Made by a program: the position numbers and the translations under genes
Shown here: one piece after another, positions 1,964 through 46,220 of the stretch
Position numbering within the stretch: the first letter of the stretch is position 1
How the letters are laid out: each line of letters starts with the position of its first letter
Notes under the pieces: generated by a model
What the model was told of the DNA's origin: nothing
Database searches by the model: none
The model's input: the letters and a program-made list of their open reading frames with translations, nothing else
IMG/VR virus record: IMGVR_UViG_3300021090_000032
Coordinates: 1-48,637 of that record
DNA from: a virus
DNA: 48,637 nucleotides
Direction: 5' to 3' (one strand)

Positions 1964-1994
1964 TTGACTGTATCTTGCCGTTGCCGTTCATAGT
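1964..1994 (+). promoter_or_regulatory. Weak sigma70-like promoter overlapped by palindrome copy 1
   Basis: TTGACT (1964-1969) and CATAGT (1989-1994) are separated by 19 bp, longer than the ideal 17. The -10 hexamer lies inside the GTTCA-N5-TGAAC palindrome at 1986-2000, so a protein bound there would block it. Transcription would enter the structured region at 2015 and then the small-gene block. Confidence is limited by the long spacer. Confidence 0.3.
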
Positions 1995-2003
1995 CTGAAC
2001 AGG
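1986..2003 (+). repeat. Dispersed palindrome copy 1, GTTCA-N5-TGAACAGG
   Basis: GTTCA TAGTC TGAACAGG in the intergenic leader, just upstream of the 2015-2213 inverted repeat. Exact match to the ten fixed positions and to the AGG extension. Confidence 0.75.
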
Positions 2004-10081: not shown

Positions 10082-11355
10082 AGGAACTAGAGACAATACA
10101 TATACCCATCCAGCTTCTTAATTGCGAGGACGTTCCGGTAGATGATTTCATTACGGAACTGTCTGAATCCATCAAGACGAATGGATTGATGAATCCGATT
10201 ACTGTTCAGGCTCTGAACGGGGTGGAAACCCGATTCGTTGTCAAGGCAGGAAAGAAGAGATTCAAGGCCCTTCAACTCCTTGCAGTCATAAACATTCCAT
10301 GTCGTGTCGTCTCAGGAGATGAAACTGAGATGAAGTTAGTGACCATCGAGGAGAATTTAAGGAGAACGAATCTTCCCTGGTATGAGATAGCTACACTCGT
10401 GGCCGACTGGCATGAGACCCGGCAGGCTCAACATGGAATAAGTCCAGGAATTAAGGGAAAGGCGAAGAGAGAAAATCCTGGATGGTCAATGAGGGATACG
10501 GCCGAAGAACTAAAAATGTCCCTCGGCTTTATTTCTGAAGCAGTCATGGTGGCACGAGCAGTAGCGAAAGATCCAACTCTTCGAAAGATTAGCGACCGAG
10601 ATACAGCTGTACGTCTTGTACGAAGTGCAACGAAGAGAATCGAAGCTGAGGCCTATGCGTCGGCTCCGGTTGAGTTTGCAGTTAATCAAGTCTACAATGG
10701 TCCGGCTGCGGAGATCCTTAAGAGGTTCGACCAGCATACTTTTAACGCCTGCATTACCGATCCTCCGTGGCTTAAATATATCGACGCGAAGTTAACTCGT
10801 GACGACGAGACATTGCCGGTTTTCAAAGAGTTGTACAGAGTAATGAAAACCGACTCCTTCCTTTATCTCTTCGTCGGCTTTGACGACTTCTACTCCTACC
10901 AGCGTCGACTGCCGGAGTACGGTTTCTCTGTGTCGAAGACGCCGCTGATCTGGATTAAGAAGGAGCTTCGTCTAAGAGAAGAATCAAAGGAAGCTTACCT
11001 CCATGGTGTAACCTTCTCCAAGGGATCGAGGGCCTGGGAATATTCACGGGACTTCGAGCTGATAGTCCTAGCGGTTAAGGGTTCTCCGGCTCTCGTCGAA
11101 TCAGTGACTCAGAGCTCGATCAAGGCCTTCGCTCCGGTTCCTCCAGTTAAACTTGTTCATCCTAACGAGAAGCCCGTAGGCCTGATCGTCAATCTCCTCG
11201 AGGATTGCTCCCATGAGGGATCACTCATCATCGATCCGTTCTCTGGCAGTGGTGCCCACCTCGAAGCCTGTGCTCAGACGGGGAGGAGATACATCGGTAT
11301 CGAGAGGGATCATGAGAGATATATCAGTATCAAGGAAAGGCTGGCGAAGAAATGA
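10078..11355 (+). CDS. ParB-domain / DNA methyltransferase fusion
   Basis: ATG 10078 overlaps the MazG stop (ATGA); 425 aa. Residues 1-110 are a ParB/Srx-type N-terminal domain (VKAGKKRFKALQLL, IEENLRRTNLPWYEIA). Residues 140-200 are helical with a KMSLGFISEAV helix-turn-helix. Residues 210-425 are an adenine/cytosine-N methyltransferase with DPPW (228-231) before DPFSGSG (386-392), the order of beta-class enzymes. Both halves look intact. It may methylate phage DNA at sites chosen by the ParB/HTH part, protecting against restriction or marking DNA for segregation. The dispersed palindromes in this genome are candidate targets (inference). Confidence 0.8.
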   Translation: MKELETIHIPIQLLNCEDVPVDDFITELSESIKTNGLMNPITVQALNGVETRFVVKAGKKRFKALQLLAVINIPCRVVSGDETEMKLVTIEENLRRTNLPWYEIATLVADWHETRQAQHGISPGIKGKAKRENPGWSMRDTAEELKMSLGFISEAVMVARAVAKDPTLRKISDRDTAVRLVRSATKRIEAEAYASAPVEFAVNQVYNGPAAEILKRFDQHTFNACITDPPWLKYIDAKLTRDDETLPVFKELYRVMKTDSFLYLFVGFDDFYSYQRRLPEYGFSVSKTPLIWIKKELRLREESKEAYLHGVTFSKGSRAWEYSRDFELIVLAVKGSPALVESVTQSSIKAFAPVPPVKLVHPNEKPVGLIVNLLEDCSHEGSLIIDPFSGSGAHLEACAQTGRRYIGIERDHERYISIKERLAKK

Positions 11356-11684: not shown

Positions 11685-11938
11685 CAGCTTCCTGGGCAGG
11701 GAAGATGGAGGACCCGAGACAAGCCTGGGGAGGACATTGTATCTGGTGTGGAACTGAAGGATACGATAAGAACCGTCTAGAGTTCTGCCATCTTCCTGGT
11801 AAACCAACTAACATGAGTGGATCAAGTCGAGGACTATCTCGAAGATACTATGATGTTAAGCGTAATCCATCCAACTATGTACTCTTGTGTATGAATCATC
11901 ACATCGAGTTAGATAAGAGGGGAGGAGGAAAGAAATGA
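11681..11938 (+). CDS. HNH-endonuclease-like zinc protein, 85 aa
   Basis: GTG 11681 overlaps the previous stop (GTGA); ATG 11705 is the alternative. Motifs: CIWCG, then LEFCHL, then NYVLLCMNHHIELD. The CxxC knuckle, His-containing middle strand and final NHH helix resemble the beta-beta-alpha-metal fold of HNH nucleases. At 85 aa it is at the short end of the family, so it may be a minimal nuclease or a degenerate DNA-binding form. It precedes the polymerase, a common place for phage HNH genes. Confidence 0.6.
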   Translation: MTASWAGKMEDPRQAWGGHCIWCGTEGYDKNRLEFCHLPGKPTNMSGSSRGLSRRYYDVKRNPSNYVLLCMNHHIELDKRGGGKK

Positions 11939-14442
11939 GCGGAGCTAAATACGTCCCGGGCTATGGCTCCTCCTCTGCTCAGCTTATCGTCTGTGGCGAG
12001 GCTCCGGGTAAGCATGAAGAGGAGGAGGGTAAACCTTTCGTAGGTCCTACTGGTCAAGAAACGAGGTCTATGCTACGTACTGCAGGTATAGCTCCCGAAT
12101 CTTGTTTCTACATGAATGTATTTCCATATAGGCCACCTGGCAATGACATTAAACTTGCAGCCCAAACAGGACATACGATCGAAGAGTGTATCCCCGATAT
12201 GTGGGAGACAATCAAGGCCATCAAGGCAGCTGGAGGAGGAAAATGTATCCTCGCCCTTGGAGCCCTTGCTCTTAACGCGCTCACAGGTGAGACTGGTATC
12301 AAAAAGTGGCGTGGTTCTATTCTTCCAAGTCTATACGCTAACGCGAAGATAGTTCCATCGATCCATCCAGCAAACCTCTTTGAGAGAAGAGGAGCAAAAG
12401 GACTCTTCCCCTACTCTGCTAAAGTCTATATGCAATTAGACTTCAAACGAGCAGTGGAGGAAAGTATGTCCGAGGAGTTAGAACTTCCCCGTCCCTTTCT
12501 TCATACAGCTAAACGACATATAGAACTCTATGACTTTATAGAGAGGAAGGTAGAGAAGCAGGGCAAGTTTATAATGTCTACCGACATCGAGGCGTTGAGG
12601 TGTATACCGATGATGTGTGGACTTGCCTTTGATAAACATGAAGGGCTTTCTTTTCCCCTTATCAATCTCACTCAACTTGATCCCAACTTTTACGTCCCCG
12701 ACTATGAGATTGCGAAAATGTGGCGGCTCCTAGATAAGCTCTTTAGAGATCCTCGTATAAAGATTCTTGGTCAGAACTTCAAGTATGACCAAGAGAAACT
12801 AGAGCCTATCGGATTCCGTTTCCCTAACGGTATCTACGCCGATAACTCTCTCCTCGGTAAGCTTGTAAATCCTGAATTTCCGGCATCCCAAGAATTCATG
12901 ACCTCGATATATACTCGTCAGCCTTATTACAAGGACGAGTATCGAGAATATAATCCAAAGAAAGATCCACTTAAGAGGGTTTTCGATTACAACGGTCTCG
13001 ACGTTGTAACGGCTTCATGGATCTTTGACGAGCTAATCTCAGAGGCTAGAGAGATAGGGCTTGAGGACTTCTTCTTCAACTTCATGATGCCTCTCCATCC
13101 CATCTATAAGGAGATGGAAGAGTTAGGCATGGAGGTTGACTTCGAGGTACGAGATAAACTGTTCGCCAAGTATACTGAACAACAGTTAAGGTTAGAAGAT
13201 GAACTCTTTGAGCTCGTAGGTCACCCTGTCAATGTCAACTCCACTAAGCAGGTACCATTCCTCCTCTATGAAACACTAAAACTTCCCCGACGTAAAGATG
13301 CAGCAGAGGATACCCTTGTACAATTACTGGCAAACAGAATCAAAGATGACCGGAGAAAAAAGATTGTTAACCTCATCATCGACATCCGACGCATCAGGAA
13401 CGCGAAAACGAAAATCGCGTTCCGTCCGGATTATGACGGTCGTATGCGAACCAACTTCCGCATTGCAGGAACGGAAGCTGGTCGCACATCTACATCGATT
13501 CTTAAGCGGCCAGTTCGATTGCATCAAATGGGTCTCAGTGGGCACTCCATCACGAAACATGGAGAATTCGGTGGTGATATACGTACCATGTTCGTTCCTA
13601 CGAAACTTAAAGCCACTGGATCAGAGAAGCTCATCTTTATCAACTCGGACCTATCACAAGCTGAGGCCCGCGTTGTTGGACTTCTATCGGAAGATGAGGA
13701 GCTTCTATCTTGGTTCGCCCAGAAAATAGATGTTCATGGTCGAACAGCGGGATTCATATTCGGTGGTAAAGAGGAAGACTACTCCAAGACTAAAGAGCAT
13801 CCTGATCCACCCGAGCGACATATTGGTAAGATAGGAAGGCACGCCTATGGCTATGGAACGTCAGCCAAGAAACTCATGCTCGAAGCTAATACTCAAGCTC
13901 GACGATTCCATATTGATATTCAAATTAGTGAATGGAGAGCTAAGCAAATTCTCTCCATCATGGATGAGAAGGCTCCAAAGATATCTCAGGTGTATTGGCC
14001 CGCAGTTAGGGCTATCGCTCACGGGAACCGTATCATTCGGACAGCTCACGGACGAATTAGACAATTCCTTAATCGTCTCAACGACGATCTTTACCGAGAG
14101 ATGTACTCGTATATCCCGCAGGCGGACGTCTCCGATCATCTTAAAGAAGCCATGATACTTAACAAGAAAAAGTTTAAGCATCACATCCGCTATGTCATGG
14201 AAGCACATGACGCCTTCACAGCTGAAATACCTGTATCGGCTCAGCAGGATGTGGCTGGATATACGAAGGAGGTAATGGAAAGACCTATTAGCTTCGAACA
14301 GTGTACCATTTCTAGGGGAGAACTTATCATCCCTTGCGACATTGAATTTGGAGAGAACTATAAGGACTTTAAGAAATGGAAAGGACCAATTGAGTTGGAT
14401 CGACGAAGTGATGGAAGCAACGGCGGAGGCGGAAACTCCTAG
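11935..14442 (+). CDS. Uracil-DNA glycosylase / DNA polymerase I fusion
   Basis: ATG 11935 overlaps the previous stop; 835 aa. Residues 1-150 are a uracil-DNA glycosylase of family-4 type: GEAPG (21-25), PFVG, N61 with RPPGND, and SIHPAN with H144-P145. The N-terminal CxxC that holds the iron-sulfur cluster in family 4 is absent. Residues 210-370 are a 3'-5' exonuclease (D217-x-E219, N281/D285, Y352/D356). The rest is a PolA palm: motif A around D572, the O-helix with R628, K632, H636, Y640, and motif C as H758-D759-A760. H636 sits where E. coli has F762, and the usual Glu after the motif C Asp is Ala. Replicative polymerase of the phage. Confidence 0.85.
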   Translation: MSGAKYVPGYGSSSAQLIVCGEAPGKHEEEEGKPFVGPTGQETRSMLRTAGIAPESCFYMNVFPYRPPGNDIKLAAQTGHTIEECIPDMWETIKAIKAAGGGKCILALGALALNALTGETGIKKWRGSILPSLYANAKIVPSIHPANLFERRGAKGLFPYSAKVYMQLDFKRAVEESMSEELELPRPFLHTAKRHIELYDFIERKVEKQGKFIMSTDIEALRCIPMMCGLAFDKHEGLSFPLINLTQLDPNFYVPDYEIAKMWRLLDKLFRDPRIKILGQNFKYDQEKLEPIGFRFPNGIYADNSLLGKLVNPEFPASQEFMTSIYTRQPYYKDEYREYNPKKDPLKRVFDYNGLDVVTASWIFDELISEAREIGLEDFFFNFMMPLHPIYKEMEELGMEVDFEVRDKLFAKYTEQQLRLEDELFELVGHPVNVNSTKQVPFLLYETLKLPRRKDAAEDTLVQLLANRIKDDRRKKIVNLIIDIRRIRNAKTKIAFRPDYDGRMRTNFRIAGTEAGRTSTSILKRPVRLHQMGLSGHSITKHGEFGGDIRTMFVPTKLKATGSEKLIFINSDLSQAEARVVGLLSEDEELLSWFAQKIDVHGRTAGFIFGGKEEDYSKTKEHPDPPERHIGKIGRHAYGYGTSAKKLMLEANTQARRFHIDIQISEWRAKQILSIMDEKAPKISQVYWPAVRAIAHGNRIIRTAHGRIRQFLNRLNDDLYREMYSYIPQADVSDHLKEAMILNKKKFKHHIRYVMEAHDAFTAEIPVSAQQDVAGYTKEVMERPISFEQCTISRGELIIPCDIEFGENYKDFKKWKGPIELDRRSDGSNGGGGNS

Positions 14443-16087: not shown

Positions 16088-16567
16088 TTAGAATCTCCTC
16101 GTTACCCCTCTAGCTCCCAGTCGGTTTACTCCTTCTCCTCCCATTCCGGTATACCCTCCACCGGAGAATCGAGGGGGCAATCTCCTCATACTTCCAGCAA
16201 TACCTCCGGGACTGACTGGAGGACGTCGAATAGCCCTTGCGATACTATCTCCCATTTGACCTCCCATTGGAGATCCTCCGCCCATATCCACTTCCTTCCC
16301 CAACATATCTCCACCCATCATATCCCCACCCATCATGTCAACCTTAGGTGGAGGCGGTGGAGCACCGAATCTATCTATTCCTTGACCGGGAGTAGGAAGG
16401 TTGGAAAAGTCAGGCGACATGCCCTCCTGCATACCTGACATATCCACGTTATTCATCGTACCCCAATCAACGGGTTCAGGCTTCCTCATGCCTCTCGCCA
16501 TAGGCATTCTTCGATCCCTCATGTCACCACCATCGAATCCAAACATTTTTGCTTCCTTCCTGTTCAT
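16088..16567 (-). CDS. Met/Gly/Pro-rich low-complexity protein, 159 aa
   Basis: Last gene of the leftward late operon. Its N-terminus is charged, the middle has PPPPP and repeated GGDMMGGDMLG units, and the end is Gly/Arg-rich. Probably disordered and perhaps packaged in the virion with the giant protein upstream. Its start codon lies in palindrome copy 2. No family recognised. Confidence 0.55.
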   Translation of the reverse strand: MNRKEAKMFGFDGGDMRDRRMPMARGMRKPEPVDWGTMNNVDMSGMQEGMSPDFSNLPTPGQGIDRFGAPPPPPKVDMMGGDMMGGDMLGKEVDMGGGSPMGGQMGDSIARAIRRPPVSPGGIAGSMRRLPPRFSGGGYTGMGGEGVNRLGARGVTRRF

Positions 16568-16576
16568 ACTCTGAAC
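16559..16576 (-). repeat. Dispersed palindrome copy 2 (reverse orientation)
   Basis: Read on the minus strand: GTTCA GAGTA TGAACAGG. It spans the junction of the two last late genes, and its TGAACAGG half forms the start of the 16088-16567 gene (ATGAACAGG). It is the only copy whose AGG extension faces left. Confidence 0.75.
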
Positions 16577-16577
16577 A

Positions 16578-19500
16578 CTATTGATCCAGCTCTTCCCTTA
16601 GCCGACGTGCGATTGGATATCCAGCAATCGGAATTTGTTGTGCTCCCCATCTAGTTGTATTTCTTCCGGGAGTCTCTTGCCATTCAACGTCTTCGGGCAA
16701 TCTATTGACATCCTTGATAAGCGATCCAACCCCCTCAGCAATGTTACCAGCAACGGGACCAGAGAGTGCCTTAGTACCAACTTCTATAGGACTACCACTA
16801 GCTCCAAGAATCCTCTCAATTGCCATTTGGAATACACCAATACCACCCCACATAGATACATTCTGAAGTGATCGCTTGAGTGGATGAGTCCACGGAATAC
16901 GCTTATTACGTAGAATATGATACCACTGAACTTCCTCATCCCAAAGATTTTCGTCTCCGGTAGCTGATCCAATAACCTGATCCATGTCTAAGTCTTCATC
17001 GGATACCTTCTGTCGGATAATCTCTCTCAGTCCCTCTCTAATAGGAAAGAGAACTTCCGAGAATCCTGTAATGGCTACGGGAGCGACGGTGAGTAGACGA
17101 GCGAGAGGACGTATATTTCCCTGCCGAGCTTGGGTAAAGATATCTCTAACGAATAGAGAATGACGATACATGAATCTCGTATATTGCGTAGCAAGCTTAC
17201 CAGATGTAGATGACGTCCATCCTGGCAGTTCCATTGCTCCTGAGCGGAAGAGAGCTTTATCCGACAACTCCTTTCCAACCTTCAGAGCGAAGTCTGGATC
17301 AATATCGATGGCCTTCTGGAGATCGGCGAGGTTATTAATGTCAAAGCCTAATCCCTTTATATCCTTAAGAGCTCCTTTGCTTCCCCAACCACCTTTCATT
17401 GCATCGCCGACCATGAGTTTACCTACTGTATTTGCATGAATTCTGGTCCAGCGATCGATGGTAGGAATACCCCACATAAACTTCTGTAGAGCACGTGAGG
17501 GGATACCTTCTCTAGCCCCATAAGCACCAGCTACGAGTTCTTGTGTGATATCTGGTACTAGAGCGCGGCTTCGAATTGCGTCATATATTTCATCGGGAGC
17601 ATTTTTCACTACCGCTTTAAGAGCACGAAGTGACCTACCAAGTCCGCCATAGAGAGCTGTATTTGTCGCTTGTACTGGCTGATAGAATGCCGCGAATCCT
17701 AGGTCGCTCAGAGCTTGAACGTGGCGAGCATGACCAGAGAAGCGTTCAAATCCTCCAGGATGTTCTCGGCCCATGACGCGTCGAATATTCATCTGGAGCC
17801 ACTCAGCTGTAGCTTTATCCGTCACATGCTTCTTAGCGAAGCTACGTAGAACTTCTAGACGCTTACCAAAGTTTTGGACTTCGGAGATACGTCGATAAGC
17901 TGAGAGGAAGTACTCATCCAATACATCGAGATCTCGACGATAGTCAGCACGCTTCGACAGTCGCGCCTTTTCGAGACTTGATTCTCTCATGTTCCAGTTC
18001 TTGTCCATATGAAGATTCTGGACAAGATTATCGTCCCATCCTTCAGCAAACTTATGGGGAAAATAAGTCTGACGTTTTCTATCTGCAGCCTTTCTTACTC
18101 CTGCTGATATAGCATCACTCCATGTTTGATCTAGCATAGCTCTGTAGTTGATAGCTGCCGATCGAACGTTTACTGGCGTCTTTTCATCGATGACCTTCTT
18201 TCCATCGAGTATATCAATAACCATCCTCTGTTCTGGCTTAGCGAGACTCTTCTTAATTCTCCAAGAATCTGCAATGTTCTTCATTGCAGGAGTCTCGGCA
18301 TCATCAATATACTTAGTAAACTGCTTCTTTAGCCAAGGATGTACTGACTCGAAGTTTTCGATGACAGGCATAACTGCCCTACGCCATCGAGAGAGACCCT
18401 CTGCTTCAGGACCCCCCTCTTTCGGCGTTCCCTCCAACATAGCCTTAAGCTTATCTGGAGGTATGCCAGCTTCTTCAGCCAGCTTAATCATCTTTCTTTC
18501 TTCTCGTGCCCTATTCCACTCAGCACGAGCGATGGCCCTTTCCTTAGACGTAGTAGTCTTTTCTCCAAACTTCGCCGTCATAAACTCAGCGAAGGTCTGG
18601 CCCTTTTTAGGTGGAGGTGCTCCTTCGAGGGCGCCGGTGGGGAGAGGAGGGGTAGGCTTAATTGTTTCAGAACGAGGTTCCTTCAATCCTCCAGCTTCTC
18701 TAGCTAGTCCAACTTGTTCTCCAGCTTCTATAGGAGGAGTAGACTCTAGCCCTGCCTCCTTTACGATATCCTCGATGGGGACTTCCCCAGGAATCATTTC
18801 TCCCTTAGTACGTTCGATGTAGTTGGCTGTATCCTTGATAGCTTGTTGTTCTTGAGTAAAAGGACCGGCTTTGCCGACCTCTATCCTCATCGCAGGATTT
18901 TCAGCATTTGCGTTTACATTACTAATGAGTCTCTCGTGAGCTAGCTTAATTTCGTCTGGAGCTACATTCCTCCAGTCTGGGCCAAAAGTCTGCTCTGCCT
19001 TTGCTTCAAAATTATCTAGGTCAATAAGATCCTTTGGAGATAGAGAACCAGCTCCACCCAGCTCCGGCGGGGCTTCAGTATCAATAACATTTTCTGGGGT
19101 CGATCTCATTTTCATGAGAGAGCCAGGGGGCTTAGCGTCTTCGGCAATATTCCAGACCCTAGATGTAGGACTCTCAGATGGAGGTTCTTTTATGAGCAAT
19201 TCAATTTTTGCGAGTTCTTCTGGACTTATAGGAGCCTGCCCTTTATCGAACCTCGTAACGATTTCTGGTTCAATCGTGCCCGCAGTAACTTCCAGAGGAC
19301 CAGCCCCGCCCGGGTTGCCAGGCATCTGACCCGGCTGAACGGCTGGCTGAACGCCTTGAACGCCTCGCTGAACGGGAACTACCCCCTCGATCGGTGGATT
19401 GTCCTCGGGGGGTATCACTGAACGCGGTTGAACGGCACCTAGCGGCCGGCCCAAATCGTCTACATTTTCCTGACTTATCTTTATATCTAATTGTCTTTGA

Positions 19501-23520: not shown

Positions 23521-24191
23521 AGTATCACCTTTCCGTTCAGGCTCTGAACAGGAAGCAAATAGCCTCTTTGAGCATTACGTATATCCTGTCTAATCTTTTC
23601 AAGCTCTTCACGGGTATACCTAACGTGGGGTAAAAGCTGTCTCATGATCCGATCGAACGAGGCAGATATGATGCCGAGCAGGGGAATAACGAAGGTGATT
23701 GCGAACATGCCAGAAGCGGTATAGTCTACAATAACCTTATGATAGGTTATAAGATAGTGGATATCATCATGAAGACCGGCAGATTCATACCTGATTCCAA
23801 ACATTGAATTGTTTACTTTCTCCACCGTCCATCCACCACCTCCACCGAAAGTGATGACACTGCTCTCAGCAGTCCAAGCAGGAGGAAACACAGTGCTGCC
23901 AACAAGGTAATCTACGTCATTATATCTATGTATCCAATTTCTAATTGATACACCACCCGAAATACTACGTCCAAGAGTTGCATACTGGGTTAGAGAGTTG
24001 ACAACTACTGCATCATTTGGAAGATCCTGATAAGAGTGCAACAGCCGAGAAGGGAAAAGCCAGTCCACATTATCAAAATAGCTAGTACTACCATCATTGG
24101 TATTGATGGCATCTACATTATTAAGAGCCCCTTGCAGTGTCCATTGATCGTAAATAACTAGTAATGTAGCAGCAAGGTCAACAGTAGGCAT
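23517..24191 (-). CDS. Hypothetical tail-associated protein, 224 aa
   Basis: ATG 24191 is coupled to the upstream gene. Beta-rich N-terminal two thirds with FGGGGGWTVEKVN, then one hydrophobic segment (SGMFAITFVIPLLGIISASF) and a basic helix. The last residues (PVQSLNGKVIL) are encoded by palindrome copy 3. It lies between a tail-fibre gene and the endolysin; it may be a membrane-contacting tail or lysis accessory. Not recognised. Confidence 0.55.
   Translation of the reverse strand: MPTVDLAATLLVIYDQWTLQGALNNVDAINTNDGSTSYFDNVDWLFPSRLLHSYQDLPNDAVVVNSLTQYATLGRSISGGVSIRNWIHRYNDVDYLVGSTVFPPAWTAESSVITFGGGGGWTVEKVNNSMFGIRYESAGLHDDIHYLITYHKVIVDYTASGMFAITFVIPLLGIISASFDRIMRQLLPHVRYTREELEKIRQDIRNAQRGYLLPVQSLNGKVIL
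23535..23552 (+). repeat. Dispersed palindrome copy 3
   Basis: GTTCA GGCTC TGAACAGG, inside the last codons of the leftward 23517-24191 gene, 15 nt before its stop. Confidence 0.75.
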
Positions 24192-30512: not shown

Positions 30513-31145
30513 CTACTTGGCGTTCATGGGCTGAACAGGGTTTCCAGCGAATTGGAACTTCTTGTATTCCTCAGGTTGAAGAACTACGTGACAAGCGAAA
30601 CAAACAATTGCAGACTTTGAAATGAGCGTCGTACAAACAGGACAACGTATGATCGTATCTGGGGAATCGTCAAGCCAGTCCCTCTTCAGCCCGAGTTCCC
30701 GGCATGCTATACGATCCAAGTCCCCAATTTGGGCGATGATGTGTGAAGTCTGCCATACGTCATCGGCCAATCGAACTAGACGCTTCCACCACTCCTTTTG
30801 CACATTTGCAGCATTACTAACTTTATCGGGAAACTTTTGCTTAATCTGATCTTCTACAAAAGCTTCTGGAACCCAAAACATTCCAGGACCAGCTTCCTGA
30901 TCCTGTCCAGGTTGACTGATGACATAATCTTCTACAACTGACTTTGCAATCTTATCACCTGATACAACCATCAATTCCGATCCACGATCGTGATCTAGAT
31001 ATACTCCTCTTTGACCATCTGATACAACCAAAATCCCAAGTCCACCATTCTTAGCTGCAGGAATAGTATACTCTCCAGGAAACATACCAGGCTTATGCTC
31101 TGGTCCCACTCTATACGGCAATAGACTGACCACTGTTGCTCTCAT
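30513..31145 (-). CDS. Structural-region protein with C-terminal zinc ribbon, 210 aa
   Basis: ATG 31145 (MRATVVSLLPYRV) has GGAAAGGA upstream; the longer start at 31184 overlaps the upstream gene deeply. The middle is beta-rich; near the C-terminus CPVCTTLISKSAIVCFAC forms a CxxC-x11-CxxC ribbon. The last residues (NPVQPMNAK) are encoded by palindrome copy 4. It overlaps the upstream gene by 35 nt. A zinc ribbon here is unusual for a virion-gene neighbour. Confidence 0.6.
   Translation of the reverse strand: MRATVVSLLPYRVGPEHKPGMFPGEYTIPAAKNGGLGILVVSDGQRGVYLDHDRGSELMVVSGDKIAKSVVEDYVISQPGQDQEAGPGMFWVPEAFVEDQIKQKFPDKVSNAANVQKEWWKRLVRLADDVWQTSHIIAQIGDLDRIACRELGLKRDWLDDSPDTIIRCPVCTTLISKSAIVCFACHVVLQPEEYKKFQFAGNPVQPMNAK
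30522..30539 (+). repeat. Dispersed palindrome copy 4
   Basis: GTTCA TGGGC TGAACAGG, covering the final codons of the leftward 30513-31145 gene, a few bases before its stop. Confidence 0.75.
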
Positions 31146-36420: not shown

Positions 36421-38726
36421 TACGCTCCCCCCGTCGATTCCACCGCACCCGATTTCTCTGCTTGTCCACCCTTCTTAGGGGGCGCCGTCTGAGCTGCCTG
36501 AGCCGCAGCATTAGCCTGCTGTTGCATCATAATCTGTTCAAGGATCATCATGTGCATCTGTAGATGCTCCATGACCATAGCCCAACCTTGGGGATTAATT
36601 TCCTTGGTCTTTCGTCCATTCTCACTCGATGCCCATGACCTAAGCGTCGTTGCATGAATCTCATGGTTATCAAGATCAGGATCAACTTGAACCATCTGTC
36701 CGATAAGGATATTGTTAATCTCCCAAAGTTGGTACTCACGATCATCCTCACCTGGAATCTTGAAGTTATTCATACCGATAAGGATTCTTGTAGCTTCTGA
36801 CATATTTTCTGGCGTAAACATCCACTCAAAGAGCTGTGGGATGCCAGTCTGGAGCAACTCCATCATGACACCACGCTTCTGCTCGGTAGAAAGTGGGAAG
36901 CCTTCATCATTCTCAGGACGGACACGACCAACATTTCCATCATCAATATCAGCGAGCTTGATATACACGTTCGTGAAGCCTTTTCCAGCCTCCTTAACGA
37001 ACTTAACATCCTCTCCCTGAAATATCATATGGAGACGCATCTCATTCACGGCCTTCTTCATTACTTTCGACCAAGTGAGAGTAAGAAGGAACCACGTGAC
37101 GGAGAGGCGTTGAAGTGCTGACTGCTTCATCTGTCGGTATTCATCGGCAGTTCTTGAGCTTCCAGAAGGAAGGGGTCCTCCGTGGATACCGGGGAAGTCT
37201 CCTGTAACAAATTGACCATATTGTTCAAGAGACTGACGGAATATTTCGATATTATCGGAAAGAGTTGTAGCTTTACCCTCAAAGAAGCCAGCGTCCAGTC
37301 CCATTCCGGCAGGACGCTTTGCGGCATAGACATTTCCTGGAGCTTTTGTCGCTTCCGCATACTTCTTAAAGTTAAGAACGCTTGGATCGGCAAAACGATC
37401 GGGAATTCCGAACAAGATGTGTTCCAGTGTCAGCTGGACCACATCATTTGTCATATCCTGAATCGGAATCTCAACCTTACCTAGAGGATCTCCGTGGATA
37501 TGTTCTGCATACGGATCAAAAACTATCGTCCAGTGCTCATCTACATTCTCATTAAAGGCTTCAACGAACTCTCCATCTACGAAGGTAACCTGTACACCCT
37601 TCTTAAACTTCGCTCGAAGGGAATCAGCAATGGCTCCCTCAATAAGATTGAAAGTCCATGGACGGAACCAACAACGTTCAAGAGTTTTTTGATCCTGATC
37701 GGTTATTCCACCCTCTCCTGCTCGTCTCGCAGTTCTCGCGGTATCTGCTGTGCCCGATTGAGCAGGAGATCCGGAGTTTATATCGAGATGTTGAAAGATT
37801 TGCTTCAACTGAGCCCAATGATGCTCAGTTTCAAGAATGAGGTATCCAGCTTGCTCAAGGGATTTTACATTATAAGGTACACGTAGGTGTCTTGGACCAT
37901 AAACTTCTATCTTCTCACGACCACGAGGAATTTCGTTAATTGTGGCTATTACAGGAATTGGCTCAATAGAAGAACTTTGTATAGCTTCAACCCCACACGT
38001 AGGGCAGATGCTGTTCGGGGTCTGAACAGGAAGCTCTTCCGTACATTCTGGACAATAAGCTTCCGACATTTCCTGATCTATCGTCTTATACGTCCTTCTC
38101 TCGATCGTACCATACTTTTCTTCGTCATAGACATACGTATTGTAGTACGCGACGAAGGGTTGGTTCCAACGGGTATAGACAGCACGGAGATGGAGGAGTC
38201 GGGCTTCATTGTCGTCAGCAATGAACTCAGAAGCGATAGAATACGTCTTTGCTGTAGTAATATCCTGTGGATCTTCTGCATCCTCGGGATAGAATCGAAC
38301 CTTTGGGGTCTCTGACGAGATTGCTGATGCAATAGATTCTCCATGTGCTCTGTAGACATTAACAATCTTTGATCCGATATAGGTATCTTCAAGCTCTCCA
38401 GCAGCACGGATTACTCCAGTGGCAGACCGAAACTCCCTCAAGTCCGGATCATATACGACGTCTTGCAGACCACGCCAATAGTTCTCGTACATCTGCCAAA
38501 TTGGAACCATCTTTTCACGAATATCGTCATCTGGCTTTGTGATAGTAGTCAAGATGGTTTTAAGGGCAGTCTTTTCCTCATCAGTTAGATTAATCGCCTG
38601 ACCTATAGCAGTAGTTGCAGTAGGAGGAACTATAGACTGATCTGGAGGAGGAGGCATCATAGCATCCGGAGGAGGCATACCTTCCCCCTCCTCCATCATA
38701 GCAGCGTTAATCGAGTCGATACCCAT
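36420..38726 (-). CDS. Portal protein with zinc-finger insertion, 768 aa
   Basis: ATG 38726. Long P22-like portal: Met/Pro-rich N-terminal tail, IWQMYENYWRGLQDV, GSKIVNVYRAHGESIASAIS, a central mixed domain, SGSSRTADEYRQMKQSALQR in the stem/crown helices, and a Gln/Ala-rich helical C-terminus (MMQQQANAAAQAAQ), the barrel-like end seen in podovirus portals. Near residue 230, YCPECTEELPVQTPN is followed by CPTCG, a CxxC-x11-CxxC zinc ribbon not typical of portals. Palindrome copy 5 encodes the loop of that ribbon. It would anchor packaging at one vertex. Confidence 0.8.
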   Translation of the reverse strand: MGIDSINAAMMEEGEGMPPPDAMMPPPPDQSIVPPTATTAIGQAINLTDEEKTALKTILTTITKPDDDIREKMVPIWQMYENYWRGLQDVVYDPDLREFRSATGVIRAAGELEDTYIGSKIVNVYRAHGESIASAISSETPKVRFYPEDAEDPQDITTAKTYSIASEFIADDNEARLLHLRAVYTRWNQPFVAYYNTYVYDEEKYGTIERRTYKTIDQEMSEAYCPECTEELPVQTPNSICPTCGVEAIQSSSIEPIPVIATINEIPRGREKIEVYGPRHLRVPYNVKSLEQAGYLILETEHHWAQLKQIFQHLDINSGSPAQSGTADTARTARRAGEGGITDQDQKTLERCWFRPWTFNLIEGAIADSLRAKFKKGVQVTFVDGEFVEAFNENVDEHWTIVFDPYAEHIHGDPLGKVEIPIQDMTNDVVQLTLEHILFGIPDRFADPSVLNFKKYAEATKAPGNVYAAKRPAGMGLDAGFFEGKATTLSDNIEIFRQSLEQYGQFVTGDFPGIHGGPLPSGSSRTADEYRQMKQSALQRLSVTWFLLTLTWSKVMKKAVNEMRLHMIFQGEDVKFVKEAGKGFTNVYIKLADIDDGNVGRVRPENDEGFPLSTEQKRGVMMELLQTGIPQLFEWMFTPENMSEATRILIGMNNFKIPGEDDREYQLWEINNILIGQMVQVDPDLDNHEIHATTLRSWASSENGRKTKEINPQGWAMVMEHLQMHMMILEQIMMQQQANAAAQAAQTAPPKKGGQAEKSGAVESTGGA
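38012..38029 (+). repeat. Dispersed palindrome copy 5 (one mismatch)
   Basis: GTTCG GGGTC TGAACAGG, with G in place of A at the fifth position. It lies in mid-portal, encoding PVQTPN of the zinc-ribbon loop. The only copy well inside a gene. Confidence 0.65.
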
Positions 38727-41048: not shown

Positions 41049-42630
41049 TTTCTAGTTTTTCCATCTGTAGATAGAAGGTAGTCATATCCCCCGTCTTTTC
41101 TAGACGAGCGAGGATCTTTTCCTTCCTACCGACGAGAGAGCCAGCCTGCTTTGACTCCTCAAAGTAGCGGTGCGCCCGCTTGATACCATATCGCTGACCG
41201 TCATAGGGATCATCCCCAGGCCATTCCATCACGTCCTCGGGATTTTTTGGATCAGAGACACATGCAACTATAGCATCTATTGCTAGTTTACATGTACTAA
41301 AGATTTGATAACGGGGAAGATTGATCTCTGGCGGCTCCGGATCAAAGAGCTTGTGATAATCGCGTGCGACAGCTTCACCCTTGATGCGGTAAAGCTTCGC
41401 TTCTATCTCAGGATCATAACCGCTAGGAGGTAAATAACGAGGAGGATGAGCTGTCCATCGGAAATAATCATGCAAGAGCATCTTACCACCGATACGATCG
41501 GAGTCCGACTTCTCAACCTCCATGCCAAGCGCTTCAGCTATTTGTACGTCGAGTGTCTTTTCCTCTCCCCTGTTTCCCCAAGCTGATTTATCTAGCGTAG
41601 CAGGAGAACGAAGTCCTGCATAGTCTAATGCCATACGAGCTAGATCGGCTCCCCAAACGCTAATCTTCGTCTGTCGGCAGGCATGCTCTCTAACTAGATA
41701 GATCCTCTCGTCAGGAGAGATAGCAAAGAACCCCGCCCACATCATGGCATCATATCCCCAGTCAATGACTAGGAAAACAGGCCAGTAATCGGGAATTGTA
41801 AAGGGATCACAGACGTGGACTGCGTTTGACGGTTCATCAAAGTTGTGGATCGAACGGAACTCACGGAAGACAGCGCCAGCAATGGCGTCCCAATCTCCAT
41901 AGAGCTTAGAACGTTTCTCTGCTTCGGGGAGGAGATTGAGGGAGTTGATGTAGGTAGGATCGCGCTCCATGATAAGGGGATTATCAGTTACGCGAGCTTT
42001 GATAAAGATTCGCTTTACTAGCGTACCATCAGGCATCAGCTCTGCTATGATCCGACCACCTTCTTTACACGGATCAATAAACCTTTCCTTGACCCATGCG
42101 TGGCCGATGCCGAGGGGATTCGAAGCAGCTCTGGCATACGCTGGTAAACCCTCAACAGTTGTACGACAGCGAGAGTGTACAAGATACATCCAACGGAAGC
42201 GAGTGAACGCCGTGAGTTCGTCGAAGGCCACGTAGTTATACTGCGCCGTGTCGTGGTCATATGCTTGATCGTCTTTTGCGAGATAAGAGAAGCGAATCTT
42301 CGCTCCAGAGGGAAACGTCCAGAAGTGTTCCGTCCCATTATAGACTCCGCCGAAGAGCTTATACCACGTTTGGCTCTCATGTATGAGACTCTCTTCTAAC
42401 TGAGGAAAAGACTCACGGAAGAGGATACCGTGGAATCGAGGATGTAGATGATACTTCCTAAGGATCGGGTCCATAAGAAGCATGAAGGATTTGCCAGGAC
42501 CTGCTGCCCCGCCAAAGAATCCTTCTTTAATTGTTACGGGAATAGCTGCGAAGGTCTCTTGCTTCGGAAAGAGCTTAATGTCTACCCTGGGTTGATCTGG
42601 CGGGAGGATCTCTACCGAAGGAGAACTCAT
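40966..42630 (-). CDS. terL: Terminase large subunit
   Basis: ATG 42630 overlaps the small-subunit stop (ATGA); 554 aa. Walker A is GGAAGPGKS (K47), Walker B is YVAFDE (D137-E138), followed by a coupling motif near ARAASNP. The C-terminal RNase H-like nuclease starts with FLVIDWGYD and has a later DKSAWGNRG. Full length for the family. It cuts and pumps phage DNA into the procapsid through the portal at 36420. The last 27 codons overlap the following gene. Confidence 0.92.
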   Translation of the reverse strand: MSSPSVEILPPDQPRVDIKLFPKQETFAAIPVTIKEGFFGGAAGPGKSFMLLMDPILRKYHLHPRFHGILFRESFPQLEESLIHESQTWYKLFGGVYNGTEHFWTFPSGAKIRFSYLAKDDQAYDHDTAQYNYVAFDELTAFTRFRWMYLVHSRCRTTVEGLPAYARAASNPLGIGHAWVKERFIDPCKEGGRIIAELMPDGTLVKRIFIKARVTDNPLIMERDPTYINSLNLLPEAEKRSKLYGDWDAIAGAVFREFRSIHNFDEPSNAVHVCDPFTIPDYWPVFLVIDWGYDAMMWAGFFAISPDERIYLVREHACRQTKISVWGADLARMALDYAGLRSPATLDKSAWGNRGEEKTLDVQIAEALGMEVEKSDSDRIGGKMLLHDYFRWTAHPPRYLPPSGYDPEIEAKLYRIKGEAVARDYHKLFDPEPPEINLPRYQIFSTCKLAIDAIVACVSDPKNPEDVMEWPGDDPYDGQRYGIKRAHRYFEESKQAGSLVGRKEKILARLEKTGDMTTFYLQMEKLENDENSSDVVSRRPGRTISGRHPRYRGH

Positions 42631-43184
42631 GTCAATTGTTTCTGATCGGGGCGAGCTGCTACGACGATAACCTCGCCGTACTCCGCCTCCGATCTAACTC
42701 TAGGAGGATGAACAAAGACAGCAACGTTAGTTCCAGCCTGCTTCGGCGTTAGCTTATCGACGATGGTTGCGAGGTCTTTCGCTGCTCCAACCGCTGCACG
42801 TATAGGTAGAGTACCTAGATTCTGATCGTTGATGACAGAGGCGAACATACCGGCTACGCGTTCTAGAGCTACCTCTCTCAGATCCTTCCTCTGCTTGCCA
42901 ACTATCTCATCAATCGTATCCTTCATCTCTTCATCGTGACGATTGACTCCTACGTTTCCCTTCTTCGACTGCATGACTGTGCTCTTACTGACGTTGAATG
43001 CATCGGCAACAGAGACAATCGTATCATGATGTGCAGCTACACCAATGATCGTCCGAATCGACTGAGGGATATCCTTCGCTCCATGGGTCCTACCGTTCGA
43101 CTTCTTGATGAAGGTAGGAGAAGAGACTGCGAGATTCCTCGGATCATTAAGAAGTTCTGACGCTCGCTCTGGCGTGATTTCCAT
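42627..43184 (-). CDS. terS: Terminase small subunit
   Basis: ATG 43184; 185 aa. An HTH-type N-terminal part (IVSVADAFNVSKSTVMQSKKG) is followed by a helical middle (TIDEIVGKQRKDLREVALER) and a C-terminal region that would contact TerL. Immediate coupling to the large subunit and size support the call. It would recognise the packaging start site, which in many phages lies in or near this gene, here possibly in 43373-44039. Confidence 0.75.
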   Translation of the reverse strand: MEITPERASELLNDPRNLAVSSPTFIKKSNGRTHGAKDIPQSIRTIIGVAAHHDTIVSVADAFNVSKSTVMQSKKGNVGVNRHDEEMKDTIDEIVGKQRKDLREVALERVAGMFASVINDQNLGTLPIRAAVGAAKDLATIVDKLTPKQAGTNVAVFVHPPRVRSEAEYGEVIVVAARPDQKQLT

Positions 43185-43186
43185 AT

Positions 43187-43372
43187 CTATCTAGACTTCT
43201 CGAAGAGTGTAGGGATACTCTGATTAACTATCTGTGCTTCGTAATCATAAAAGTCAACAGTCATGGGGACCCGGAGCATCTTCGCTCCTTTCCAATTCTT
43301 TACGACGATACGAGGCTTGAATGGGAACGTGAGGAGAGTGACTAAACTCATTAGGAATGATCTTCGTATCAT
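43187..43372 (-). CDS. Small hypothetical protein, 61 aa
   Basis: ATG 43372 has GGGGGAG 6 nt upstream; ATG 43351 is an alternative. A hydrophobic N-terminus (FLMSLVTLLTFPF) precedes a short basic/aromatic domain. First gene of the leftward operon, transcribed from the promoter near 43548-43576. Function unknown. Confidence 0.5.
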   Translation of the reverse strand: MIRRSFLMSLVTLLTFPFKPRIVVKNWKGAKMLRVPMTVDFYDYEAQIVNQSIPTLFEKSR

Positions 43373-43406
43373 CTATAACTCCCCCAAAAGACTTAACAAA
43401 AAGGGA

Positions 43407-43438
43407 CCGCGATCTATATGGAAGGTCTCCGCGATCTA
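43407..43438 (+). repeat. 10-bp direct repeat, CCGCGATCTA twice
   Basis: CCGCGATCTA at 43407-43416 and 43429-43438, 22 bp apart (about two helical turns), just downstream of the leftward promoter and upstream of the first late gene. Suitable for a dimeric regulator or TerS binding; both are guesses. Confidence 0.5.
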
Positions 43439-43547
43439 ACCTCGGTGTTTCCTCCGAGGCAATCCAGCTGGTGACCAACCCGTATCAAAGTCTACCTCCT
43501 CCCCAAGAGTTAGATTCTGAAACGTAATAGACCACGGTCCCCCTCAG

Positions 43548-43576
43548 ATGATACGAACTCCTCGGGAAAAAGTCAA
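43548..43576 (-). promoter_or_regulatory. Sigma70-type promoter of the leftward late operon
   Basis: On the minus strand TTGACT (43576-43571), 17 bp, TATCAT (43553-43548). Transcription would begin near 43541 and run into the 43372 gene and TerS. The palindrome cluster begins 11 bp upstream of the -35, a position used by activators or looping repressors. The spacing is ideal and both hexamers match well. Confidence 0.6.
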
Positions 43577-43586
43577 GGCCTAATTG

Positions 43587-43634
43587 CTGTTCGTAAACCC
43601 TGTTCAGCCTGATCCTGTTCACTCTATGAACAGG
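43587..43634 (+). repeat. Dispersed palindrome copy 6 with two extra half-sites
   Basis: CCTGTTCA CTCTA TGAACAGG at 43614-43634 is the only copy with both arms complete to 8 bases. Half-sites CTGTTCG (near 43587) and CCTGTTCA (43599-43606) lie to its left, at 10-16 bp spacing. This is the densest cluster in the window and abuts the late promoter. Confidence 0.75.
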
Positions 43635-44039
43635 TTATGTCCTATACCCTAATGTCTATAAGCATGCTTAAATAAAGACTAGTAAATATGGGACCCTTTT
43701 AAGCTAGACTCTTTTCTGTGAAAACACGGGAGGTTGAGGATCCCCCCCGGCCGGCACGGATGGGACCCGCCCGGTCAGGCACCCCGTACCGGCGGATTGG
43801 ATCGCCCGATACGGCGCATTGAAGGGACGGGGCCGGCGCAGAATTTTCGCCAAGTTTATTTTTCGACGCGCAAAATCCGCACGACAAACCCCTCGCCACG
43901 GCCTAGCTTGTGGGTAGCTGGCAATGCCGCCAGTGACCGGGCTCGGATAGCTCGGGTTCTTTGAAAGCTTGCCAGACCCGGACCGGATCGGTGGTGAAAC
44001 CCCACGTCCGCACGGGACTGGCACAGGAAAGAGGACAAG

Positions 44040-44492
44040 ATGGCCGAATTGCATAAGCCGTGGATTCTGCTCGCAGTCGCCGCAGGCCTCGCACGTCTCG
44101 AGGATGCCAAGGTGAAGATCAACGATCTTCCGAACAAAGGCGACAAGCACGAGGAACCGTTCAAGTCGGTCGTTTTCGACGTGGACAGCCGTGAAGCGGC
44201 CTCGGAGTTGTTCGATCTGGCCGAAGCGGCCAAGGGCACCGTCAAGGTCGAAGTGGACGGCAAGGAGACGGAAGTTCCCGCCGAGAATCCGCTGTCCGTT
44301 TTGCTCGGCTACGCCTACGGCCTGAACTGCCGCGCGAAGGTTCGGGCTCAGTATGAGGCGAAGTTCGAGGACCCGGACAAGGCGGTCAAGAAGATCGCCG
44401 AGATGCTGGTCAAGTCGGGTCAGTTCAAGTCCCTCGACAAGGCTTTGGCCGCTGCCAAGCTCATGCGCGAGGAGCCCGACGAAACCGAGTAG
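44040..44492 (+). CDS. Hypothetical protein, 150 aa, GC-rich
   Basis: ATG 44040 has AGAGGACAAG upstream. Acidic/basic alpha-beta protein: SVVFDVDSREAASELFDLAEAA, a beta pair (TVKVEVDGKETEV), then helices (KIAEMLVKSGQFKSLDKAL). Codons are strongly G/C-ending, unlike the late genes next door. First gene of the right-hand block. No family recognised; high codon optimisation suggests abundant expression. Confidence 0.65.
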   Translation: MAELHKPWILLAVAAGLARLEDAKVKINDLPNKGDKHEEPFKSVVFDVDSREAASELFDLAEAAKGTVKVEVDGKETEVPAENPLSVLLGYAYGLNCRAKVRAQYEAKFEDPDKAVKKIAEMLVKSGQFKSLDKALAAAKLMREEPDETE

Positions 44493-44941: not shown

Positions 44942-45011
44942 ACCCTTCCCCACCTACTCTCCAACGAGCGCGACGGCCTCGTTCCCTCCCGATAATCCAA
45001 CGAGCTATCTT

Positions 45012-45029
45012 GTTCATATCCTGAACAGG
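45012..45029 (+). repeat. Dispersed palindrome copy 7
   Basis: GTTCA TATCC TGAACAGG in the gene-free stretch just before the TA-rich island. Confidence 0.75.
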
Positions 45030-45800: not shown

Positions 45801-46220
45801 ATGAGTAAGCTAAAGAGAAGTCGATGCGATCACGATAGCAGGTTGCATCGTTACAAGAAATTCCTGACAGCGAACAATAAGCCTATTTGGCATTGTATCG
45901 ACTGCACGTCACGCGCTAACTTCGACATGGCGATTGTGACGAATCTAGCGCGGTGCTACGATTGCGAGACGGTATTCGGGCTATCGCTCGACCGGCTTCA
46001 TTCTGTTTCAAACGGGCATAAACTCGGCCTTATCGACGGCGTTCCGATTACGTGCGGTCATCCTGATTGTGCGGAGAGAAAAGCAGATAAGGTACGTAGA
46101 GCATACGCCGAAACACTAGTAGAACGCGTGATGGAAAAGCTCGCAGCGGCGGCGCCGACCAGTTCAGAGTCTGAACAGGATGGCGAGGCGCTTCTCTTGT
46201 CTATGATGAAGGGAGAGTGA
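45801..46220 (+). CDS. Zinc-finger-rich hypothetical protein, 139 aa
   Basis: ATG 45801. Several Cys/His groups: CDHDSRLHRYKK, WHCIDC, CYDC, then CGHPDCAERK. Two zinc sites are likely. The C-terminal helix (RAYAETLVERVMEKLAAAAP) ends in a Ser/Glu tail encoded by palindrome copy 8. Function unknown; a nucleic-acid or protein adaptor is plausible. Confidence 0.6.
   Translation: MSKLKRSRCDHDSRLHRYKKFLTANNKPIWHCIDCTSRANFDMAIVTNLARCYDCETVFGLSLDRLHSVSNGHKLGLIDGVPITCGHPDCAERKADKVRRAYAETLVERVMEKLAAAAPTSSESEQDGEALLLSMMKGE
46162..46179 (+). repeat. Dispersed palindrome copy 8
   Basis: GTTCA GAGTC TGAACAGG, 42 nt before the stop of the 45801-46220 gene, encoding its disordered SSESEQDG tail. Confidence 0.75.

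Follow-up and report, generated by a model that had tools for sequence, protein, structure and literature searches.

Short DNA sites that are dispersed over a replicon are known from plasmids, chromosomes and phages. OB sites are scattered on plasmid RK2, and the chromosome carries dispersed sites for Noc. The stoperators of L5-type phages are asymmetric; they follow the direction of transcription and are recognised by the immunity repressor of the temperate phage. For ParB, Noc and KorB, CTP-dependent loading at palindromes, clamp closure and sliding were described (PMC7053999, PMC8429893, PMC11790492), and residues of the helix-turn-helix (HTH) determine the site specificity of ParB and Noc (PMC7383237). 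Fusions of a ParB-CTPase domain with an N6_N4 methyltransferase are enriched or common in phages; their function is reported as unknown, some of the methyltransferase (MTase) fusions are stated to bind ATP rather than CTP, and the passages considered name no DNA sites for them (PMC12704722). No previous account of cognate sites of phage ParB-methyltransferases was found.

The locus examined here belongs to a viral stretch of 48,637 nt, called the window in the following, which encodes the same domain fusion as reported in PMC12704722 and carries a dispersed palindrome. Like KorB/OB of plasmid RK2 (PMC11790492), it combines a ParB-family protein with HTH and multiple palindromic sites per replicon. 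KorB is a CTPase and sliding clamp that regulates distant promoters; for the window fusion, a clamp action would be an analogy to this protein. In contrast to the fusion, KorB lacks a methyltransferase part and works together with KorA, and its site sequence is unlike that of the window. The arrangement of ParB_N and HTH is shared with Noc/NBS and ParB/parS, in which HTH residues set the specificity (PMC7383237, PMC8429893). The sites of these proteins are likewise palindromes, of 14-16 bp; the half-sites in the window are further apart. Furthermore, the fusion has a methyltransferase in place of the C-terminal dimerisation domain, and no ParA-type gene (PF01656) was found in the window. The stoperators of mycobacteriophage L5 (PMC3029335, PMC5712189) are comparable as many short sites dispersed over a phage genome, but the palindromes of the window are symmetric and also lie mid-gene, and no tyrosine integrase was found in the window. 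With CcrM (6pbd) the fusion shares the beta-class DNA methyltransferase fold and the motif order; CcrM is without a ParB/HTH part, and its target GANTC is not the conserved feature in the window.

Results

Nine palindromes in the window

Allowing at most three mismatches, nine copies of the palindrome were detected in the window, compared to 0.17 expected (0 of 100 shuffles). Their positions are given in Table 1, together with the promoter and the genes under discussion. Three of the nine copies (10201, 38010 and 46159) are located inside coding sequence. The copy at 43614 is situated in the divergent region, with the late genes (TerS, TerL, portal, capsid) running leftward from it and the early genes rightward.

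The copies are about 7 kb apart, with gaps of 5.6-8.2 kb outside a cluster at 43.6-46.2 kb. Measured against nine random points on a circle, the even spacing in the window corresponds to P(max gap) = 0.002-0.004. Values of 0.0002, 0.007 and 0.013 were obtained for the relative G004, for a Desulfofustis phage and for the relative of the latter, G089, respectively. In general, even spacing was strong in the clade of the window and modest or absent in other clades.

At the start of the contig (positions 1-737), a helicase gene seems to be truncated, and comparison with relatives suggests that part of it has been lost at the ends of the contig. Probably the window represents a circularly permuted genome that was opened within the helicase gene and is nearly complete. 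A tRNA search found none.

Table 1 Features of the window; copies of the palindrome differ from it by up to three mismatches
Feature	Position	Strand	Location and remarks
Dispersed palindrome, 2 mismatches	1983-2003		3' of helicase gene; regional counterparts in G002, G003, G004, G006
ParB_N + HTH + N6_N4 DNA methyltransferase fusion, 425 aa	10078-11355	+	PF02195, PF01555; proposed palindrome binder
Dispersed palindrome	10201-10221		Within ParB-methyltransferase coding sequence, codons for VQALN
Dispersed palindrome	16559-16579		Convergent 3' ends, where early and late gene blocks meet
Dispersed palindrome	23532-23552		Junction of genes 23143/23517
Dispersed palindrome	30519-30539		Junction of genes 29850/30513
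Dispersed palindrome	38010-38030		Within portal coding sequence (PVQTPNS)
TerS-like gene, first large gene of leftward late operon	42627-43184	-	Precedes TerL; weak HTH-type PHROG match (E = 0.0096)
Sigma70-like promoter TTGACT-17-TATCAT	43548-43576	-	For TerS and leftward late genes; sequence read
Accessory half-site GCTGTTCG	43586-43593		Centre about -33 from palindrome centre; sequence read
Accessory half-site CCTGTTCA	43599-43606		Centre about -20 to -21 from palindrome centre; sequence read
Perfect palindrome CCTGTTCA-CTCTA-TGAACAGG (CCTGTTCA-N5-TGAACAGG)	43614-43634		TerS/early divergent region
Dispersed palindrome, 1 mismatch	45009-45029		3' of g44582
Dispersed palindrome, 1 mismatch	46159-46179		3' part of g45801

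Conservation in close relatives

With TerL as query, five close relatives (G001-G004 and G006; proteins about 60-90% identical) and a further palindrome-free set were recruited. The same palindrome was present in all five, with 7-9 copies per near-complete genome, and gene-by-gene mapping placed the copies at orthologous positions. Within the portal gene it occupies identical codons (PVQ-x-PN) in all six genomes, the window included, and the five relatives also share the codons of the copy inside the ParB-MTase gene. In a wider set of 40 relatives, about half have this in-gene copy at an unchanged coding position. Since this position is kept although the encoded residues vary in distant relatives (VQALN, VHQMN, VHELN, VRPLN, VREAN), it is the DNA and not the protein that is conserved at the in-gene site.

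The cluster at the late promoter

The initial annotation described a palindrome cluster 11 bp upstream of a leftward late promoter. Direct reading of the minus strand showed the promoter as described, flanked by the two half-sites. Ten of its 12 positions agree with the sigma70 consensus, and it is the sole promoter-like site within 43100-44100 (chance expectation 0.6). The distance of 11 bp holds approximately for the nearest half-site, separated from the -35 element by about 10 bp, but not for the full palindrome, which starts 37 bp away. This palindrome has no mismatch and no second copy of that kind exists in the window; hence it is indeed the only fully symmetric one.

A promoter of the type TTGAC-N17-TATCAT is kept in G001, G002 and G003, with a weaker -10 element in G004, and a counterpart of the palindrome lies at the matching place in all five relatives. 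Relative to the palindrome centre, the window, G001, G002 and G004 have two accessory half-sites at about -33 and -21; in G003 they are at -43 and -25. They are absent in G006. Among the relatives, they occur in either orientation. Because the TerS promoter and the two half-sites are also kept in relatives, the cluster is, as judged by sequence comparison, a real composite element.

An activator or a looping repressor of the late operon had been suggested to bind here. The conservation of promoter, half-sites and palindrome supports a role in protein binding beside the late promoter, but the palindrome is not primarily an operator of this operon. Eight of the nine copies are found elsewhere, approximately 7 kb apart; thus, local activation or looping repression would be at most a secondary role, and control of the late promoter at best a part of the palindrome function. 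Two phage proteins had been named as possible binders. The ParB-methyltransferase fits well to the comparative data presented below. TerS is not supported as binder, since no homologue was detectable in most of the distant motif-bearing phages, although TerS diverges too fast for this absence to be decisive.

No DNA similarity of the region 42.6-45.2 kb to known phages was found. To the right of the palindrome, the divergent region contains a further element, ATGGGACCC (often AATATGGGACCC), at 43688-43697 and 43760-43769; the five relatives, like the window, have one or two copies of it there. Possibly it is part of an early promoter or leader. Between the palindrome and the first early gene, a short G+C-rich non-coding stretch (43740-43860) was noticed, compared to an average GC content of 48%.

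The ParB-HTH-methyltransferase fusion

The ParB_N domain of the fusion was identified with PF02195 (E = 5.7e-9). Noc, ParB and CcrM were obtained as HMM matches, with Noc as the best ParB-type match. An AF2 model (pLDDT 83) matches Noc, KorB and ParB in one half and CcrM/M1.HpyAVI in the other; the Foldseek alignment to Noc (7nfu) and KorB (8qa9) covers about 200 columns. The HTH follows ParB_N and is formed by the AF2 helices 138-145 and 149-164. ParB boxes II and III (GxxRxxA, ENxxR) are intact, and in 16 relatives G58, R61, E92 and R96 are invariant and N93 is nearly so. By ParB_N and these two boxes, the protein is assigned to the ParB-CTPase fold superfamily, and use of a nucleoside triphosphate (NTP) is predicted. 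It is not filed as a canonical ParB, because the C-terminal half is an N6_N4 methyltransferase; the canonical C-terminal dimerisation domain of ParB was not seen in it. The methyltransferase motifs DPPW and DPFxGSG are intact in the window protein and in most relatives.

Neither parS TGTTTCACGTGAAACA nor NBS ATTTCCCGGGAAAT gave a match in the window with up to three mismatches. A scan for the ParB-MTase protein yielded 72 viral loci, and no cellular homologues were confirmed in genome contigs. As a separate feature, the phage group has a conserved DNA polymerase A with a fused N-terminal uracil-DNA-glycosylase domain, encoded at 11935-14442 in the window.

Co-occurrence of palindrome and fusion gene

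For most fusion-bearing genomes, the core GTTCR-N5-YGAAC showed a 10- to 100-fold enrichment, compared to chance level in similar phages without the gene. When the window proteins were compared by tblastn, the ParB-MTase was the only one of them that every motif-bearing genome had and that all four outgroups lacked. To avoid a selection of genomes by the fusion gene, records were also recruited by DNA polymerase (polA) alone and subsequently scored for gene and sites. At least three exact core sites were present in 15 of the 24 records with full fusion and in 0 of the 22 without (Fisher p = 2.9e-6, which overstates the association because related phages are not independent). One record scored as lacking the gene (G059) is a fragment ending just before its usual place; for this record the test is therefore conservative.

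A blind palindrome search of 30 genomes with and 16 without ParB-MTase resulted in a median z of 6.1 and 1.5, respectively (p = 5e-5), with only 5-6 shuffles per genome and with scores that are inflated in AT-rich genomes (G014, G015). Three genomes (G032, G036, G046) were weak in the blind test and clear with the known core. In five fusion-bearing genomes (G045, G047, G049, G056, Mel-JY34) no convincing palindrome was detected, and no trustworthy alternative core stood out above the shuffles. The motifs TTTCG-N5-CGAAA in G053 and CAATRTTCG-N5 in G047 are suggestive only. For G048 and G074 the blind search selected AATCGCGC-based palindromes instead of the GTTCA sites; in both, an ungapped palindrome resembling AATCGCGCGATT was found in about 13 copies alongside these sites.

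A weak HTH-only match of about 60-75 residues in short frames was observed in phages lacking the full fusion (G058, G060, G062, G064, G069, G075, G076, G077, G081, G082). Perhaps these matches represent a stand-alone ParB-type HTH protein.

Site sequence and fusion clade

The letters of the palindrome differ by fusion clade. GTTCR-N5-YGAAC, CTTCA-N5-TGAAG, GTCCCAA-N-TTGGGAC (Desulfofustis phage) and TTTGAATAAAWTTTATTCAAA (G089) were identified, each of them genome-wide. Residue 139 lies where the HTH begins; all 20 of the 20 genomes with arginine or lysine at this residue had at least four GTTCR sites. A clade that has glutamic acid instead (G072, G073, G084, G088) is devoid of GTTCR sites and contains CTTCA-N5-TGAAG instead, with 1-5 exact copies versus 0.07-0.33 expected. 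In the tree, HTH class and site class switch on few branches, hence the correlation holds few independent events.

The strongest test was provided by a distant relative, Desulfofustis phage LS06-2018-MD01, whose fusion is 26% identical to that of the window. In this phage the blind search detected an unrelated palindrome, TTGCTATGTCCCAA-N-TTGGGACATAGCAA, nine times. The largest gap between the copies is 7.8 kb, and both the divergent region at TerS and the end of the early genes are again among their locations. Its relative G089 carries TTTGAATAAAWTTTATTCAAA as a third palindrome in about 12 copies (score 288, compared to at most 46 in shuffles). The methylase motifs of the Desulfofustis fusion are altered (DFPY, SPFLGSG) and look degraded. 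Thus, methylation may not be the shared function, and the altered motifs argue for site binding as the older or more general one. In addition to the fusion, this phage has a second gene annotated as DNA methyltransferase (L287, 33475-34044).

Discussion

The nine palindromes are best explained as sites at which the ParB-type DNA-methyltransferase encoded by the phage itself binds or is loaded, with a probability of roughly 0.78. We infer the physical binding from the sites themselves, which are conserved at orthologous places, dispersed over the genome, found together with the fusion gene and changed along with the ParB-MTase clade. The HTH of a fusion dimer would read the two half-sites. By analogy to the NTP-dependent clamps ParB, Noc and KorB, sites every few kb would load the fusion onto all parts of the phage DNA. 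Once loaded, it may slide away as an NTP-dependent clamp, and the phage DNA would be marked, coated or methylated as a result. At 43.6 kb, upstream of TerS and the late promoter, the fusion together with the two extra half-sites may also control the promoter, and the copy inside the fusion's own gene may give feedback. More tentatively, and less likely than not, these fusions could in general be self-loading DNA-modification clamps that are closed by a nucleotide at parS-like sites and slide to coat or methylate the genome, the late-promoter copy coupling them to the packaging switch.

For fusions of previously unreported DNA target, candidate cognate sites are proposed here, several per genome and in at least four site classes. 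A predicted HTH-to-site code emerges, which is testable in vitro. If the reading is correct, the ParB clamp principle, which serves segregation in ParB, division control in Noc and gene silencing in KorB, would extend to the marking or organising of a lytic phage genome, and orthogonal ParB/site pairs would be available as tools.

Another phage regulator (repressor, activator or TerS) could use the palindromes as operators or stoperators, either to regulate promoters or to damp transcription over the whole genome in the manner of mycobacteriophage L5. This is unlikely. Palindromes and half-sites that adjoin a conserved promoter, and further sites at gene junctions and in divergent and convergent regions, speak for such a system. 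The three sites in the middle of coding sequence speak against it, and a tyrosine integrase was not found in the window. Moreover, the motif is tracked by no other compared window protein, and the site class goes with the HTH of the ParB-MTase.

The palindromes could also be methylated by the fusion, or be targets of restriction-modification in the host, with ParB/HTH only as target-recognition domain and with marks that protect the sites. We consider this improbable, since selection maintains the sites at orthologous positions even where codon choice is opposed to them, which is the opposite of the behaviour of a restriction-modification target. The sites also remain in the Desulfofustis phage despite the altered methylase motifs. 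The fusion does bear a CcrM-like methyltransferase, and GANTC, the target of CcrM itself, is located at the palindrome centre in several relatives. In the window GANTC is present in only one of nine sites, and it was rejected as methylase target for this reason.

Binding of a host DNA-architecture protein (ParB, Noc or a LexA-like factor) that is used by the phage is highly doubtful. Host factors with dispersed sites exist, as shown by Noc, ParB and LexA, but presence and absence of the palindromes track the phage gene and not the relatedness of the phages, and neither a parS nor a Noc-site consensus occurs in the window. A LexA-like motif was considered and set aside; the spacing does not match and the linkage to the fusion gene would be left unexplained.

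A role in RNA, as hairpins for termination, processing or antitermination, is very improbable: the inverted repeat of 8-10 bp would form a hairpin in either strand and several copies lie at gene junctions, but no Rfam match was obtained, copies are also found mid-gene and in untranscribed divergent DNA, and the palindrome of the AT-rich G089, a weak stem, is dispersed alike.
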